From: a virus
Virus record (IMG/VR): IMGVR_UViG_3300009160_000213
Coordinates: 1 to 20,416 of that record
Strand: one strand, 5' to 3'
DNA: 20,416 nt
In this document: one piece after another, positions 1 through 3,985 of the stretch
Numbering within the stretch: position 1 is the first letter of the stretch
Layout of the letters: every line of letters begins with the position of its first letter
Program-made: the position numbers and the translations under genes
The notes under the pieces: generated by a model
Databases searched by the model: none
What the model was told of the DNA's origin: nothing
The model's input: the letters and a program-made list of their open reading frames with translations, nothing else

Positions 1-583
1 CGAAGGCTCTATCGTTAGTAATTACTGTCTCCAACTCGAAGCCTAGATATACACCCTGCTTAGACACACCCTTGAAGGTAACGGGTGGCTTACAATTATA
101 GTCGTGAACTATGGCGCGACAACGGCACGGGCGACCACTAATGGCTTCCCGACACTCGCAAGGGTCGCTATCGTAGTAACTCTCATTACAATCATCACAA
201 TAGTAGCAACTATCGGAGTAGCAACTATCGCATAGAGTATCATCACCTACGCTAGAGTAATCATTGTCATTACTATAACTTGTTTCGCATTGGCTACAAT
301 AGAAGGTGTTATACTCATAGCAACTCTGACACCAATACTCATCATCTACGCTATAAGTATCATCTCTATCCATACCCGTATCGCAACGCTGGCACTCGGT
401 AGAACACTCTTCACACCATAGGCTATCACTAACCCATCGTAATCTATCCATAGGTTCAACGCTTCTACAATTATCACAAGCATTAGCACACTCTTCACAA
501 TAGTAGTCGCCGTTAATCTCTAAGTTCAAGTCGGCGGGATTACTACAATCGTGGCACTCTAGTTCTTCATCTTTATCTTCCAT
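1..583 (-). CDS. Amidoligase-like protein with tandem zinc-ribbon N-terminus (partial, C-terminus beyond left edge)
   Basis: An open frame reads leftward from ATG at 583-581 through 194 codons and leaves the window. Residues 10-132 hold a ladder of CxxC pairs (10/13, 29/32, 36/39, 57/60, 64/67, 85/88, 96/99, 118/121, then a cluster to about 155). This gives four units of the form CxxC-x15-18-CxxC, as in treble-clef or LIM-like zinc ribbons, set in a very acidic Asp/Glu/Tyr-rich background. At residues 178-186 the sequence VYLGFELET matches the characteristic opening strand of the amidoligase (COOH-NH2 ligase, ATP-grasp-related) family found in many phages; the catalytic core would follow outside the window. 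Family members are thought to form amide bonds on peptides or proteins; the substrate here is unknown. A GAGAGGGGG ribosome site precedes the ATG and a near-consensus promoter lies just upstream. The zinc-ribbon part is certain from sequence; the amidoligase call rests on a short motif. Confidence 0.75.
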   Translation of the reverse strand, partial: MEDKDEELECHDCSNPADLNLEINGDYYCEECANACDNCRSVEPMDRLRWVSDSLWCEECSTECQRCDTGMDRDDTYSVDDEYWCQSCYEYNTFYCSQCETSYSNDNDYSSVGDDTLCDSCYSDSCYYCDDCNESYYDSDPCECREAISGRPCRCRAIVHDYNCKPPVTFKGVSKQGVYLGFELETVITNDRAF

Positions 584-611
584 ATCTACACCCCCTCTCT
601 TTCATAGTTGT

Positions 612-640
612 AGTATAGCATATCTCTATGCCCTTGTCAA
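612..640 (-). promoter_or_regulatory. Sigma70-type promoter for the amidoligase-like gene
   Basis: Read leftward: TTGACA (640-635), a 17-bp spacer, then TATACT (617-612), followed by the ribosome site and ATG at 583. This matches the bacterial consensus at 11 of 12 positions with ideal spacing. The -35 box lies inside the last codons of the upstream 61-aa gene, so the amidoligase-like gene has its own promoter within the leftward gene block. Unlike the three promoters further right it lacks the palindrome over -10. Confidence 0.8.
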
Positions 641-811
641 GTTCCGTTGGTTATCTAGCAAGGCGTTGGATATATGAGAGCGAAGTTCTTGTGCTTCTAT
701 CTCTAATACCTTGAAGTCGTTGCGCTTGTGCGTTTCCTCTTGTAGTCGTAGTGCTTGTCGCACTATCTCTACTTGTCTAGGTGTTAGGTCTAGTAGTAGG
801 TTATCTCCCAC
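626..811 (-). CDS. Small conserved-looking phage protein of unknown function, 61 aa
   Basis: GTG start at 811-809. The product reads LTPRQVEIVRQALRLQEETH in its first half and then continues as charged amphipathic helix to the end, a pattern common in short early proteins of actinobacteriophages. There are no Cys residues, signal peptide or membrane segment. The start lies inside the last codons of the upstream 32-aa ORF (11-nt overlap), suggesting translational coupling, and a purine-rich stretch (GGCGAGAG) precedes it. The 3' end carries the -35 box of the next promoter. I recognise no domain. A helical DNA- or protein-binding role is possible but unproven. Confidence 0.65.
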   Translation of the reverse strand: MGDNLLLDLTPRQVEIVRQALRLQEETHKRNDFKVLEIEAQELRSHISNALLDNQRNLTRA

Positions 812-899
812 GATACTCTCGCCTTCCCATTAGCCTATTGACTCTCGCCGTCAAGGCGATAATCGCTAGTGTTTCCACTAGGATAATTACTTCTAGCAT
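801..899 (-). CDS. Tiny putative membrane protein, 32 aa
   Basis: ATG at 899-897 and TAA at 803-801. Residues 2-18 are almost entirely hydrophobic (LEVIILVETLAIIALTA) and are followed by a basic tail (RVNRLMGRREYRGR). That is the layout of a single-pass membrane peptide with its positive end in the cytoplasm. A GAGAGGATAGG ribosome site sits just upstream, and a strong promoter with a palindromic operator lies 25-55 bp before the start, so this is the first gene of that transcript. Its end overlaps the start of the 61-aa gene by 11 nt in another frame, as expected of a coupled pair. The length is too small for recognition by similarity; support comes from promoter, ribosome site and overlap. 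Confidence 0.5.
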   Translation of the reverse strand: MLEVIILVETLAIIALTARVNRLMGRREYRGR

Positions 900-919
900 A
901 TCCTATCCTCTCTAACTTG

Positions 920-940
920 CGTAAGTGTATCACACTTACG
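920..940 (-). promoter_or_regulatory. Palindromic operator over the -10 box
   Basis: A perfect inverted repeat with 9-nt arms, CGTAAGTGT and ACACTTACG, around a 3-nt centre (21 bp). It covers the -10 hexamer of the leftward promoter at 924-953. Near-identical 15-bp cores recur over two other leftward -10 boxes (1324-1338, 1456-1470), so it is probably the binding site of a dimeric regulator. Confidence 0.65.
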
Positions 941-978
941 GCAGACTTGTCAAGTATCTTGACTAATCGGCGTGTCGC
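924..978 (-). promoter_or_regulatory. Leftward sigma70-type promoter with upstream box
   Basis: Read leftward: box GCGACACGCCGA (978-967), 13 nt, -35 TTGACA (953-948), an 18-bp spacer, then -10 TACACT (929-924). The -35 also forms the right half of a perfect palindrome GTCAAG-ATA-CTTGAC. The first gene downstream is the 32-aa ORF starting at 899. The same box recurs at the same distance upstream of the promoter at 1457-1485. Confidence 0.75.
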
Positions 979-1024
979 GTGTCGGACTCGCACCGACCAC
1001 TATCCGTGCCACTATGGGCGCGAC
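974..1024 (-). other. Stem-loop with tRNA T-arm/acceptor-like shape
   Basis: Read leftward, GTCGCG (1024-1019) can pair with CGCGAC (979-974). Just inside the 3' arm lies a 5-bp stem GTCGG/CCGAC closing the 7-nt loop TGCGAGT. This resembles the acceptor and T-arm of a tRNA, but only about 20 nt separate the two, leaving no room for D and anticodon arms, and no CCA follows. It lies directly after the stop codon (1029) of the 88-aa gene, so it may be a transcript-end structure or a degraded tRNA. Confidence 0.35.
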
Positions 1025-1028
1025 TATC

Positions 1029-1295
1029 TTACTTGTTATGGATATTGTTATTGGTTAGGTGCGTGCGCTCGCTATCTAATTGGTCGCGAAGTCGTGCCAT
1101 AGCCAATTCTGCTTCTTCATCACTTAGGGTCGGGAGTATCCTCTCACCCGCAACGGCGGTAGCCTTGCGAACGCGTCGCATAGCCTTGCCGTGGCTTGTG
1201 TCGGTTAAACGCCACCCGCGAGAGCCTAGCCTTGTGCTAGTTCCCCGAACTTGTCTAGGTGGCATTACGATATTCCCCCCGTAGGGGTTATACAT
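1029..1295 (-). CDS. Small phage protein of unknown function, 88 aa
   Basis: ATG at 1295-1293 with the ribosome site GAGAGAGG about 8 nt upstream. The N-terminal half is rich in Arg, Gly and Ser and strongly basic (PPRQVRGTSTRLGSRGWRL). The C-terminal half starts LPTLSDEEAELAMARLRDQL and is a probable amphipathic helix with alternating charge. An alternative ATG at residue 11 also has a G-rich site before it, so the true start may be 30 nt later. The gene is the first one downstream of the promoter at 1325-1353. No domain is recognised. The basic half would suit nucleic-acid binding, which is inference. Confidence 0.6.
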   Translation of the reverse strand: MYNPYGGNIVMPPRQVRGTSTRLGSRGWRLTDTSHGKAMRRVRKATAVAGERILPTLSDEEAELAMARLRDQLDSERTHLTNNNIHNK

Positions 1296-1323
1296 AATCT
1301 ATTCCTCTCTCTAGGTATTGCCT

Positions 1324-1338
1324 AAGTCTAACACACTT
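1324..1338 (-). promoter_or_regulatory. Second copy of the palindromic operator
   Basis: Read leftward AAGTGT-GTT-AGACTT, differing by one arm position from perfect symmetry. It has the same 15-bp layout as the copies at 923-937 and 1456-1470 and the same placement over a -10 box, here TAGACT. Confidence 0.6.
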
Positions 1339-1378
1339 AATTCTAATATACAAGTTAAGCCGAAGTTCGGGCGAGTCG
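1325..1378 (-). promoter_or_regulatory. Leftward promoter for the 88-aa gene, with upstream box
   Basis: Read leftward: CGACTCGCCCGA (1378-1367), 13 nt, -35-like TTGTAT (1353-1348), a 17-bp spacer, and -10 TAGACT (1330-1325), about 30 nt before the 88-aa gene start. The hexamers are weaker than at the other sites, but the box, spacing and palindrome over -10 match them, which strengthens the call. Confidence 0.55.
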
Positions 1379-1455
1379 TGATACCCACGGGCGACCCGCT
1401 TCTTCTAGGTAACTAATCAAGCCACCCGAACTTCTTGCTTATTAACTTGTAACCG

Positions 1456-1470
1456 AAGTATCTCACACTT
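1456..1470 (-). promoter_or_regulatory. Third copy of the palindromic operator
   Basis: Read leftward AAGTGT-GAG-ATACTT, with one arm mismatch. It overlaps the -10 hexamer GATACT exactly as the other two copies overlap theirs. Confidence 0.6.
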
Positions 1471-1510
1471 AACTTGGAAAGTCAAATTTGATAATTCTTC
1501 GGCGTGTCGC
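1457..1510 (-). promoter_or_regulatory. Leftward sigma70-type promoter with upstream box
   Basis: Read leftward: GCGACACGCCGA (1510-1499), 13 nt, -35 TTGACT (1485-1480), a 17-bp spacer, then -10 GATACT (1462-1457). The 12-bp box is identical to that at 967-978 and the distance to -35 is identical. No clear gene lies between it and the next promoter, so it may add transcription to the 88-aa gene through a leader of roughly 150 nt. Confidence 0.7.
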
Positions 1511-1645
1511 TTGTTTTGGATTAACCCATATTTAATTGACACCCGAAGGATACCACACCTTCCCCCGTTCACCTAATCTATTTTGGATAATCTCATATAG
1601 TAAGACGCTCAAGCGGTGTGAGTTATATCACCGAACACCTGTTCG

Positions 1646-1725
1646 ATTACTGGTGAGTAACCTACTGGTGAGTAACTTATTATGTTACCCGTCAGTAACT
1701 TATTATTATGTTACCCGCGAGTAAT
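1646..1725. repeat. Four-copy array of 16-bp GTTAC-N6-GTAAC-type sites
   Basis: Units at 1646-1661 (ATTAC-TGGTGA-GTAAC), 1661-1676 (CCTAC-TGGTGA-GTAAC), 1684-1699 (GTTAC-CCGTCA-GTAAC) and 1710-1725 (GTTAC-CCGCGA-GTAAT), with a further half-site GTTAC at 1726-1730. The first two are tandem with a 15-bp period; the last two are preceded by similar TTATTATG stretches. Clustered dimer half-sites with fixed 6-bp spacing fit a cooperative repressor/activator site or replication-initiator iterons. Confidence 0.7.
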
Positions 1726-1791
1726 GTTACTTGTCGGTAGATAGTCGGCTAATCAACTAATCTATTTACCGCTATATCTCTTTATCTATAT

Positions 1792-1805
1792 GTCGATTTA
1801 TCGAC
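1792..1805. other. Perfect 14-bp palindrome followed by TTTT
   Basis: GTCGAT-TT-ATCGAC can form a 5-bp stem with a TTTA loop. It is followed by TTTTG on the + strand. It could be a weak terminator or a protein site; the stem is short. Confidence 0.35.
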
Positions 1806-1908
1806 TTTTGACCCCATATGCTTAAGATTGCGCCCGCGTAACGTTTATAGTATCCCTAAATAATTTTCTGTTATATTGTCATATGCCCCTATATATGTCT
1901 AAAACTAT

Positions 1909-1927
1909 AGCCCTGACCAGGGCTTTT
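1909..1927 (+). terminator. Rho-independent terminator-like hairpin
   Basis: AGCCCT-GACC-AGGGCT forms a 6-bp GC-rich stem with a 4-nt loop. It is directly followed by TTT, then AAAG and TTTTT, in the + direction. On the - strand the trailing sequence (ATAGTTTT) is poorer. No + gene lies just upstream in the window, so it may stop stray rightward transcription or act as an attenuator before terL. Confidence 0.5.
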
Positions 1928-1963
1928 AAAGATTTTTCCGTATCTTTTGTTCGCTTTTGCACT

Positions 1964-1992
1964 TTGAACAGGTTATCTATAGTATATAAATA
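1964..1992 (+). promoter_or_regulatory. Possible rightward promoter for the late operon
   Basis: TTGAAC (1964-1969) followed after 17 bp by TAAATA (1987-1992) in an AT-rich tract, about 125 bp before terL. The whole tract is TA-rich, so chance matches are likely; the call rests on the need for a promoter here as much as on the hexamers. Confidence 0.35.
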
Positions 1993-1998
1993 TATATA

Positions 1999-2023
1999 CG
2001 GAGTCGCTCCGTTTAAGACTCCG
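1999..2023 (+). other. Alternative hairpins in the terL leader
   Basis: CGGAG (1999-2003) can pair with CTCCG (2007-2011), or CGGAGTC (1999-2005) with GACTCCG (2017-2023). The two stems share a strand and exclude each other. They lie between the possible promoter and terL, where an RNA switch could act, but no ligand or partner is evident. Confidence 0.35.
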
Positions 2024-2116
2024 CTCCTCCTATATAATATATAATAATATATATAATGGGACATCTATGCCGTTAAGCGGCTAGCGCTAAATGACTGTAA
2101 ATGATGGGACAAACTG

Positions 2117-3985
2117 ATGGGTAGAAAGCCAGGGATTCAAAATATCCCGAAGCGCGAGGCCCAGGAAAAGGTCCTCCAGGTCCTAGCTCAGGGCCAGACT
2201 ATAACGGCCGCTATGGCCACTGTGGGACGTTCTGACGTAGCATTTAGACAATGGGTAGCATCTGACCCTGACTTCAAGGAACGCGCCGAGGGCGCCCGCC
2301 TAGAGGGTAAAGGCATCAAGACTGACTTGAAAGAGTTGGCTAACATTTCCTTCCCCGACTTCTCGGAGCAGTTCCTAGATACCAAGCTCTTTGACCATCA
2401 CCTCGACTGGGTTGATTTAATCGAGGGCCGCGAGCCGCGATGGCTACATCCATCTATGACATATGAACCAGGAGCGGCGAACCGTGTCCTCATCAATGTT
2501 CCCCCAGAACACGCCAAGTCGACGGTCATCACGACGAACTACGTCGTCTACAAAATCGTCACTAATCCTAACGCTCGAGTTATCGTTGTATCCAAGACTC
2601 AAGGAATGGCTAGAAAATTTCTCGGAGCAATCAAGACCAGACTCTCACACCCAGCCTATACAAAACTCCAAGTAGCCTTCGGACCTAACGGAGGATATAA
2701 GGCTGACGCTACACAATGGTCAGCTGATATGATTTACCTAGGCACAGGCCGTGACTCAGGAGAGAAAGACCCTACCGTCCAAGCTCTAGGCTTTGGCTCC
2801 CAGATTTACGGAGCTCGTGCTGACTTGATTATTCTTGATGACGTGGTTATGGGAAGCAACGCCCACGAGTGGGAGAAACAGATTGAGTGGCTACAGAAGG
2901 AAGTTATCACGCGTCTAGGACGCCACGGTAAACTTCTTGTTGTAGGAACCCGCGTATCTCCAATTGACCTCTATAAGATGATTCGTGATGGCGACCAATG
3001 GACAGGTGGCAAGTCACCCTTTACTTACTTTGCACAGCCAGCCGTTCTTGAGTTTGATGAAGACCCAAGCAAATGGAAGACGCTCTGGCCAAAGACTACG
3101 ATGCAGGAGAACCAGATTGATGAAGTTGGAGAAGACGGACTCTACCCTAAGTGGGATGGACCCAGCCTCTTTACTCGAAGGTCTGAGGTTGCTCCGTCGG
3201 TCTGGGCTATGGTCTACCAACAGGAAGACGTTCAAGAAGATTCAATCTTTGCACCAGCCCTTGTCGCAGGGTGCGTCAATGGGATGCGCAAGCGTGGTCC
3301 CCTTAAGGCAGATACTCCAGGACATCCACGGAACATCGAGTCGACCTATACTGTAATAGGATTTGACCCTGCTGTAACTGGACGAAGCGCCTTTGTCGCT
3401 GTTACTTACAATAGGGCTGATGGAAAAATTTATGTTTTGGATTGTGTCAATATGGTTGACCCAACTCCACAGAAAGAAACTGCACTCATTCACGAATGGG
3501 TCGAGAAGTATAGGCCTCAAGAGTTTAGAGTCGAAATCAACGCACATCAAAAATACTATGCTATGGATGATGACTTGCGGAACTTCTTGGCTCAATACGG
3601 ATGCCAGTTAAATTCACACTTCACTGGCAAGAACAAGTGGGACGTATCATTCGGTGTAGCCTCTATGGCTAGCCTCTTTGGAAGTCTTCGTGATGGACGC
3701 TTCCAAGATAATAACATCATAGAAATGCCAAGCAATGAAGGCTCTGAAGGACTTAAGTCTCTTACACAGCAACTCATTACTTGGAAGCCTGACACCAAGA
3801 ACCCAACAGACTGTGTTATGGCTTTATGGTTTGCAATCATCCGCGTCCGCGAACTAATGCAATCTTCAAGCAAAGTTGGAAGATACCAAAAAAATCGTTG
3901 GGCTACTAGAGCGCAAGTCGCTGGTCGTAGTGGAATTAATTTAGACGAAGCCTTTGCAGAGCAATGGGCTGAAACTTATAACTAA
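2117..3985 (+). CDS. terL: Terminase large subunit with N-terminal HTH domain, 622 aa
   Basis: This is the DNA-packaging motor, an ATPase plus nuclease that binds the portal, pumps DNA into the procapsid and cuts it. Residues 128-136 (VPPEHAKST) are a Walker A of the PPxxxKS/T terminase type. LIILDD at 237-242 is Walker B, and GTR at 277-279 fits the coupling motif. The RNase H-like nuclease carries acidic residues at D417 (VIGFDP), E473 (RVEIN) and D565 (TDCVMALW). Residues 12-60 look like the helix-turn-helix of small terminase subunits (QTITAAMATVGRS, then FRQWVASDPDF). No separate small subunit is visible nearby, so a fused TerS-like domain is plausible. At 622 aa it is longer than a typical 450-550 aa TerL, consistent with the extra domain. 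GGGACAA lies 4 nt before the ATG. It heads the rightward operon. Confidence 0.95.
   Translation: MGRKPGIQNIPKREAQEKVLQVLAQGQTITAAMATVGRSDVAFRQWVASDPDFKERAEGARLEGKGIKTDLKELANISFPDFSEQFLDTKLFDHHLDWVDLIEGREPRWLHPSMTYEPGAANRVLINVPPEHAKSTVITTNYVVYKIVTNPNARVIVVSKTQGMARKFLGAIKTRLSHPAYTKLQVAFGPNGGYKADATQWSADMIYLGTGRDSGEKDPTVQALGFGSQIYGARADLIILDDVVMGSNAHEWEKQIEWLQKEVITRLGRHGKLLVVGTRVSPIDLYKMIRDGDQWTGGKSPFTYFAQPAVLEFDEDPSKWKTLWPKTTMQENQIDEVGEDGLYPKWDGPSLFTRRSEVAPSVWAMVYQQEDVQEDSIFAPALVAGCVNGMRKRGPLKADTPGHPRNIESTYTVIGFDPAVTGRSAFVAVTYNRADGKIYVLDCVNMVDPTPQKETALIHEWVEKYRPQEFRVEINAHQKYYAMDDDLRNFLAQYGCQLNSHFTGKNKWDVSFGVASMASLFGSLRDGRFQDNNIIEMPSNEGSEGLKSLTQQLITWKPDTKNPTDCVMALWFAIIRVRELMQSSSKVGRYQKNRWATRAQVAGRSGINLDEAFAEQWAETYN

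Follow-up and report, generated by a model that had tools for sequence, protein, structure and literature searches.

The leftward promoters of this phage were preceded by boxes that formed a real, conserved, and promoter-linked feature with a WhiA-type sequence, and a separate RNA element mimicked the box at the middle promoter, P4. The box of promoter P3, and probably that of P5, would be a binding site of the host WhiA, and a phage-encoded WhiB would be the likely co-factor that raises leftward transcription; this reading, drawn from sequence comparison, was given a probability of about 0.48. The window, the whole stretch of DNA analyzed, was a 20.4-kb virus fragment from IMG/VR carrying terminase, portal, and capsid genes.

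The first-pass annotation had described three leftward promoters sharing one box at a fixed 13 nt from the −35 hexamer, and the three boxes and their spacings were exactly as described. The 12-mer GCGACACGCCGA was located on the minus strand at 978–967 and 1510–1499, exactly 13 nt ahead of TTGACA (953–948) and TTGACT (1485–1480), respectively, and CGACTCGCCCGA (1378–1367, minus strand) was 13 nt ahead of TTGTAT (1353–1348). The P3 box CGACACGCC (1501–1509, minus strand), containing the WhiA-type core GACACGCC, preceded the P3 promoter (1457–1485, minus strand), in which TTGACT was separated by 17 nt from an extended −10, GATACT (1462–1457), as read from the sequence and the relatives. The P4 promoter (1325–1353, minus strand) was composed of TTGTAT and TAGACT (1330–1325) with a 17-nt spacer that was confirmed in the alignment, and the orthologous promoters carried TTGACA. 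The P5 box CGACACGCC (969–977, minus strand) overlapped the 3' end of a tRNA-like motif and was followed by the P5 promoter (924–953, minus strand), composed of TTGACA, an 18-nt spacer, and TACACT (929–924). The pattern CGACnCGCC occurred three times in the window, always on the minus strand, far above the mean of 0.116 and the maximum of 2 in 500 dinucleotide shuffles. The box followed by a spaced TTG...TAnnnT promoter, a strict pattern that misses P3 with its GATACT −10, was found twice in the window and in none of 500 whole-window shuffles, and it never appeared twice in 2000 local shuffles.

The window terminase was 79% identical to those of phages E7 and F5 (LanE43-AprE7 and LanE43-AprF5), which were isolated on ‘Ca. 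Planktophila’ LanE-43 of the freshwater acI actinobacteria (PMC10202952). The window phage belongs to the same family as E7 and F5, and because of this identity its host is probably an acI actinobacterium. Bacterial genomes gave no match to the terminase, which thus provided no prophage or host link. Eighty terminase relatives were collected, and the close clade consisted of 20 relatives and the window. Among the leftward genes, the first ORF (1029–1295, minus strand; 88 aa) had no family match, and a 61-aa ORF (626–811, minus strand) was found, among the genomes compared, only in the box-bearing clade. The ORF at 2–583 (minus strand), open at the contig end, had LIM-like cysteines in its translation and, by our own reading of a GFELE motif, may be amidoligase-like.

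A tandem leftward promoter array was located about 0.5–1.8 kb upstream of the terminase gene in the close clade. Within 2.2 kb upstream of terminase, CGACnCGCC occurred 36 times on the leftward strand, some of these in more distant relatives with no −35 behind, and 7 times on the other strand; downstream it occurred once in 398 kb. The motif search in relatives proposed by the first-pass annotation found the box again at orthologous leftward promoters, and at P3 the GACACG was invariant in 21 of 21 genomes, 15–20 nt ahead of the −35. In an alignment that was not anchored on the box, no fully invariant block ahead of P3 was longer than GACACG. Among the 6-mers preceding 55 dereplicated leftward promoters it was also the best localized, with 16 copies sitting 16–19 nt before the −35. 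The box followed by TTGAC occurred 13 times in 11 of the 20 genomes and 0 times in the reversed-pattern control; the genomes compared share descent, and such box counts are non-independent events. The P4 equivalent of the box was GACnC in all genomes, and the P5 box was present in a minority only. The distance held at 13 nt within the window and varied among the relatives, since the −35 came 14–17 nt or 6 nt after the end of the 9-mer CGACACGCC in close-clade array copies. An extra CGACACGCC, 6 nt from a −35 and outside the RNA element, was found in three relatives (L010, L017, and L037), and G003 had one CGACACGCC outside the array, on the opposite strand and with no −35 behind. The absence from other early promoters that would have counted against the first-pass reading was not observed, since the orthologous promoters carried the box, but it was absent from the window promoter at 640–612 and from the arrays of E7 and F5. 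A site of the activator type near −55 is reasonable because the box was promoter-linked, conserved, and the best-localized 6-mer and also preceded promoters in other contigs. The earlier suggestion of an activator site about 50–60 bp upstream of the start is therefore plausible at P3 and did not extend to the middle box, which belonged to an RNA strand.

From its covariation, the middle box is the 3' strand of a predicted conserved leader RNA stem rather than a WhiA-type site. The 71-nt structured element E4 of the leftward leader (1363–1433, minus strand) contained the ‘displaced’ box CGACTCGCC (1378–1370), of which CGACTC was the 3' strand of the inner helix. In an alignment of the P4 region from 19 phages, E4 consisted of two stems, one of them the long closing stem, and a hairpin, and the segments CUYGAY, UAGUARCAG, and CACGAC were conserved. 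Pairing was found in 94.3% of the cells, both sides changed in 21 of 26 pairs, and the covariation score was 0.684, compared with 0.207 for shuffled controls and a maximum of 0.165 for slid ones. The CGACnC strand paired with GxCUYG, and its variable fourth base tracked the partner (columns 12–60: UA 9, GU 8, GC 1, one mismatch), while columns 16–56 contained GC in 16 and CG in 3 cases. The frequent G-U pairs indicate that the leftward transcript is the strand that folds. The one-base displacement at 1378 noticed by the first-pass annotation was present and was accounted for by this pairing: the middle box reads GACTC and appears displaced in the window because CGACnC is the helix strand, and GACTCGCC fitted neither GACAC nor GAYACRCY. 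The E4 model R1 gave one match per close-clade genome and none outside the close clade in the sequences searched. Similar to the riboswitch-like structured leader RNAs of Rfam 15, E4 had a covarying stem, conserved unpaired bases, and a 5' leader position, whereas the window and relatives matched no Rfam family (no match in window 500–2120 at E ≤ 1, and none at gathering score in 7 relatives). E4 may represent a new class of RNA among freshwater phages.

The tRNA-like motif ahead of P5 (974–1024, minus strand), recognized by sequence reading, had an acceptor (GTCGCG/CGCGAC) and a T-arm (GTCGG-TGCGAGT-CCGAC) with no anticodon arm, and its acceptor strand supplied the first bases of the P5 box. 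In other phages the acceptor and T-arm were kept with different bases, mostly running straight into TTGACA, and in L004 and L015 GACACGCC was inserted between them and TTGACA. An acceptor/T-arm directly before P5 was also observed in L021, L013, and L005. The motif is perhaps a site for RNase P or other processing; ARAGORN called no tRNA gene there and the folding z-score in the window was not significant, so it is treated as a lead only. A perfect inverted repeat, TAAGTGTgatACACTTA, was observed at the P5 −10 (938–922). The P3 −10 inverted repeats of the relatives changed in sequence with pairing partly kept (own stems 6.7 vs 4.8 crossed), and TAAGTGTgatACACTTA as a fixed operator was rejected on these grounds. 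Thus, the reading of one single box shared by three promoters was not supported, because the middle copy was a strand of a covarying RNA helix and the P5 copy overlapped a tRNA-like 3' end.

These overlaps raise the alternative that the boxes are mainly RNA, 3' segments of structured leaders kept for folding, with the next promoter adjacent only by tandem layout. The P4 strand in a covarying helix, the G-U pairs favoring the leftward strand, and the position of the P5 box all fit this account. However, the P3 GACACG was invariant although its possible upstream partners differ, the three extra copies lay outside the element 6 nt before a −35, and box promoters were also found without the RNA element, which together make the account unlikely. 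Structured sequence also lies ahead of the P3 box, and RNA selection may therefore contribute.

The published WhiA core site is GAYACRCY, which in Firmicutes and Mollicutes is followed by an auxiliary motif resembling a −35 (PMC11701221), and the footprinted Streptomyces WhiA motif is GACAC (PMC3781837). The P3 and P5 boxes, GACACGCC, fitted GAYACRCY and contained GACAC, the core match being a short one. WhiA, a regulator of host cell division, was encoded in all six acI genomes, and the LanE-43 WhiA aligned along its whole length with the Streptomyces protein in 8dy7 and 8dy9. In these structures, WhiB reportedly bridges sigma region 4 to WhiA. Of the 18 relatives, 15 encoded a phage WhiB, which in the nearest complete relative (G001) was located in the leftward operon; the window ended before the expected whiB position. 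A WhiB-like factor is encoded by E7 and F5 (PMC10202952), and 2–4 Wbl proteins were encoded in five of the six host-type genomes.

In the proposed mechanism, the host WhiA would bind CGACACGCC 14–17 bp upstream of a sigma-A-type −35 in the tandem array. In some relatives the distance is 6 bp, which brings the site closer by roughly one turn of the helix. The phage WhiB, produced from the leftward operon, would act with WhiA to give more leftward transcription and form a positive loop. Here we infer the phage host, the binding of WhiA, the direction of the effect, and the cooperation of WhiB with WhiA. The Streptomyces WhiA/WhiB promoters (PMC3781837, PMC4850268; 8dy7/8dy9) have in common with the phage the GACAC core, a WhiA with an orthologue in acI hosts, and a WhiB-type partner, here phage-encoded. 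The phage differs in its tandem promoter array, the longer constant box GACACGCC, the near-constant distance to a consensus −35, and the putative status of the site. The rpsJ WhiA site of Mollicutes and Firmicutes also has a GAYACRCY core followed by a −35-like motif, whereas WhiA represses there (PMC11701221) and the acI rpsJ was without the motif. Mycobacteriophage TM4 likewise encodes a WhiB-like protein, for which competition at the whiB2 promoter was described rather than a role in driving phage promoters (PMC6282962).

In the LanE-43 genome, the intergenic density of GACACGCY was about 10-fold the genic density, with 5 sites only, against 1.05 for the reversed control, and GAYACRCY overall was not enriched intergenically. 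In LanE-43, nrdR was preceded by CGACACGCC and ftsZ by CGACACGTT, and both genes are WhiA targets in Streptomyces (PMC3781837). In 8 other genomes, the GACAC at ftsZ, taken in either orientation, varied in position and strand. No GAYACRCY was found upstream of LanE-43 rpsJ, and the host sigma-A-like promoters scanned had no GACAC at the phage box spacing. As a separate observation, GCGACACGC was present upstream of recA and DUF6504-like genes, beside LexA-like boxes, in several acI genomes (L205–L207, L211, and L214).

The first-pass annotation had favored a dedicated phage activator. Because the box matches the WhiA core site and WhiA is encoded by acI hosts, the more economical binder would be a host protein, perhaps joined by the phage WhiB. 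Recognition by a phage protein, whether sigma-like, small and clade-specific, or WhiB alone, is quite improbable. A sigma-region-4-like protein was encoded in 17 of 20 records, and among the genomes compared only the box-bearing ones had two particular small ORFs, of 61 and 87 aa, but the sigma-like protein and WhiB also occurred in phages without the array, the 61-aa ORF matched no known DNA-binding family, and the promoters retained ordinary TTGACA and TAnnnT elements. A clade-specific DNA-binding gene as the dedicated activator was rejected, as the two exclusive ORFs gave no such evidence. There is only a slim chance that WhiA binds the box as a repressor or timing element relieved by the phage WhiB: Streptomyces WhiA is about equally activator and repressor (PMC3781837) and WhiA represses rpsJ in Mycoplasma (PMC11701221), but a box upstream of the −35 presumably need not block RNA polymerase. 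Chance, or simple inheritance of functionless promoter duplicates, was already disfavored and is scarcely credible: copies within the clade do share ancestry, but the flanks have diverged around an invariant GACACG and shuffles yielded far fewer boxes.

Public viral contigs contained at least 120 stretches that matched CGACACGCC-N5-18-TTGACAAG. Among the matches listed with a credible −10, most gaps between box and −35 were 13–17 nt. Many of the matches listed were loci of the window phage's family and a few lay outside it, and some had no RNA element. In one of them, L294, the box promoter was directly behind an intrinsic terminator and the portal belonged to another PHROG. A WhiB-like signature was present in a fair number of the matches listed, as a raw tally with no background rate.

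Other sites were observed near the array start. A CRP-like site, GGTGATATAACTCACA (1617–1632, minus strand), was located there, and a CRP/GlxR-like TGTGA-N6-TCACA was found ahead of the P1/P2 −35 in L003, L006, L008, L010, L012, and L021; Crp-type regulators were encoded in most acI genomes tested. A LexA/SOS-box-like CGAACAGGTGTTCG (1645–1632, minus strand) was also observed where the leftward array begins, as in L003 and L040. Short direct repeats of the GTTACTCACCAGTA type, possibly origin-like, lay between the terminase gene and the array (1640–1750).

Phages of actinobacteria widely carry WhiB genes, which serve as a marker for such phages (PMC10202952), and a literature search found no paper naming phage promoters served by a phage WhiB. 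Tentatively, a family of freshwater actinophages may wire its leftward operon into the host WhiA by means of a phage-encoded WhiB, and the leader may carry a new covarying RNA class and tRNA-like motifs between tandem promoters. Because a conserved WhiA-type box fronts a whiB-carrying operon, and because related phages and their Planktophila strain are available in culture, phage steering of WhiA/WhiB-dependent transcription would be directly testable.
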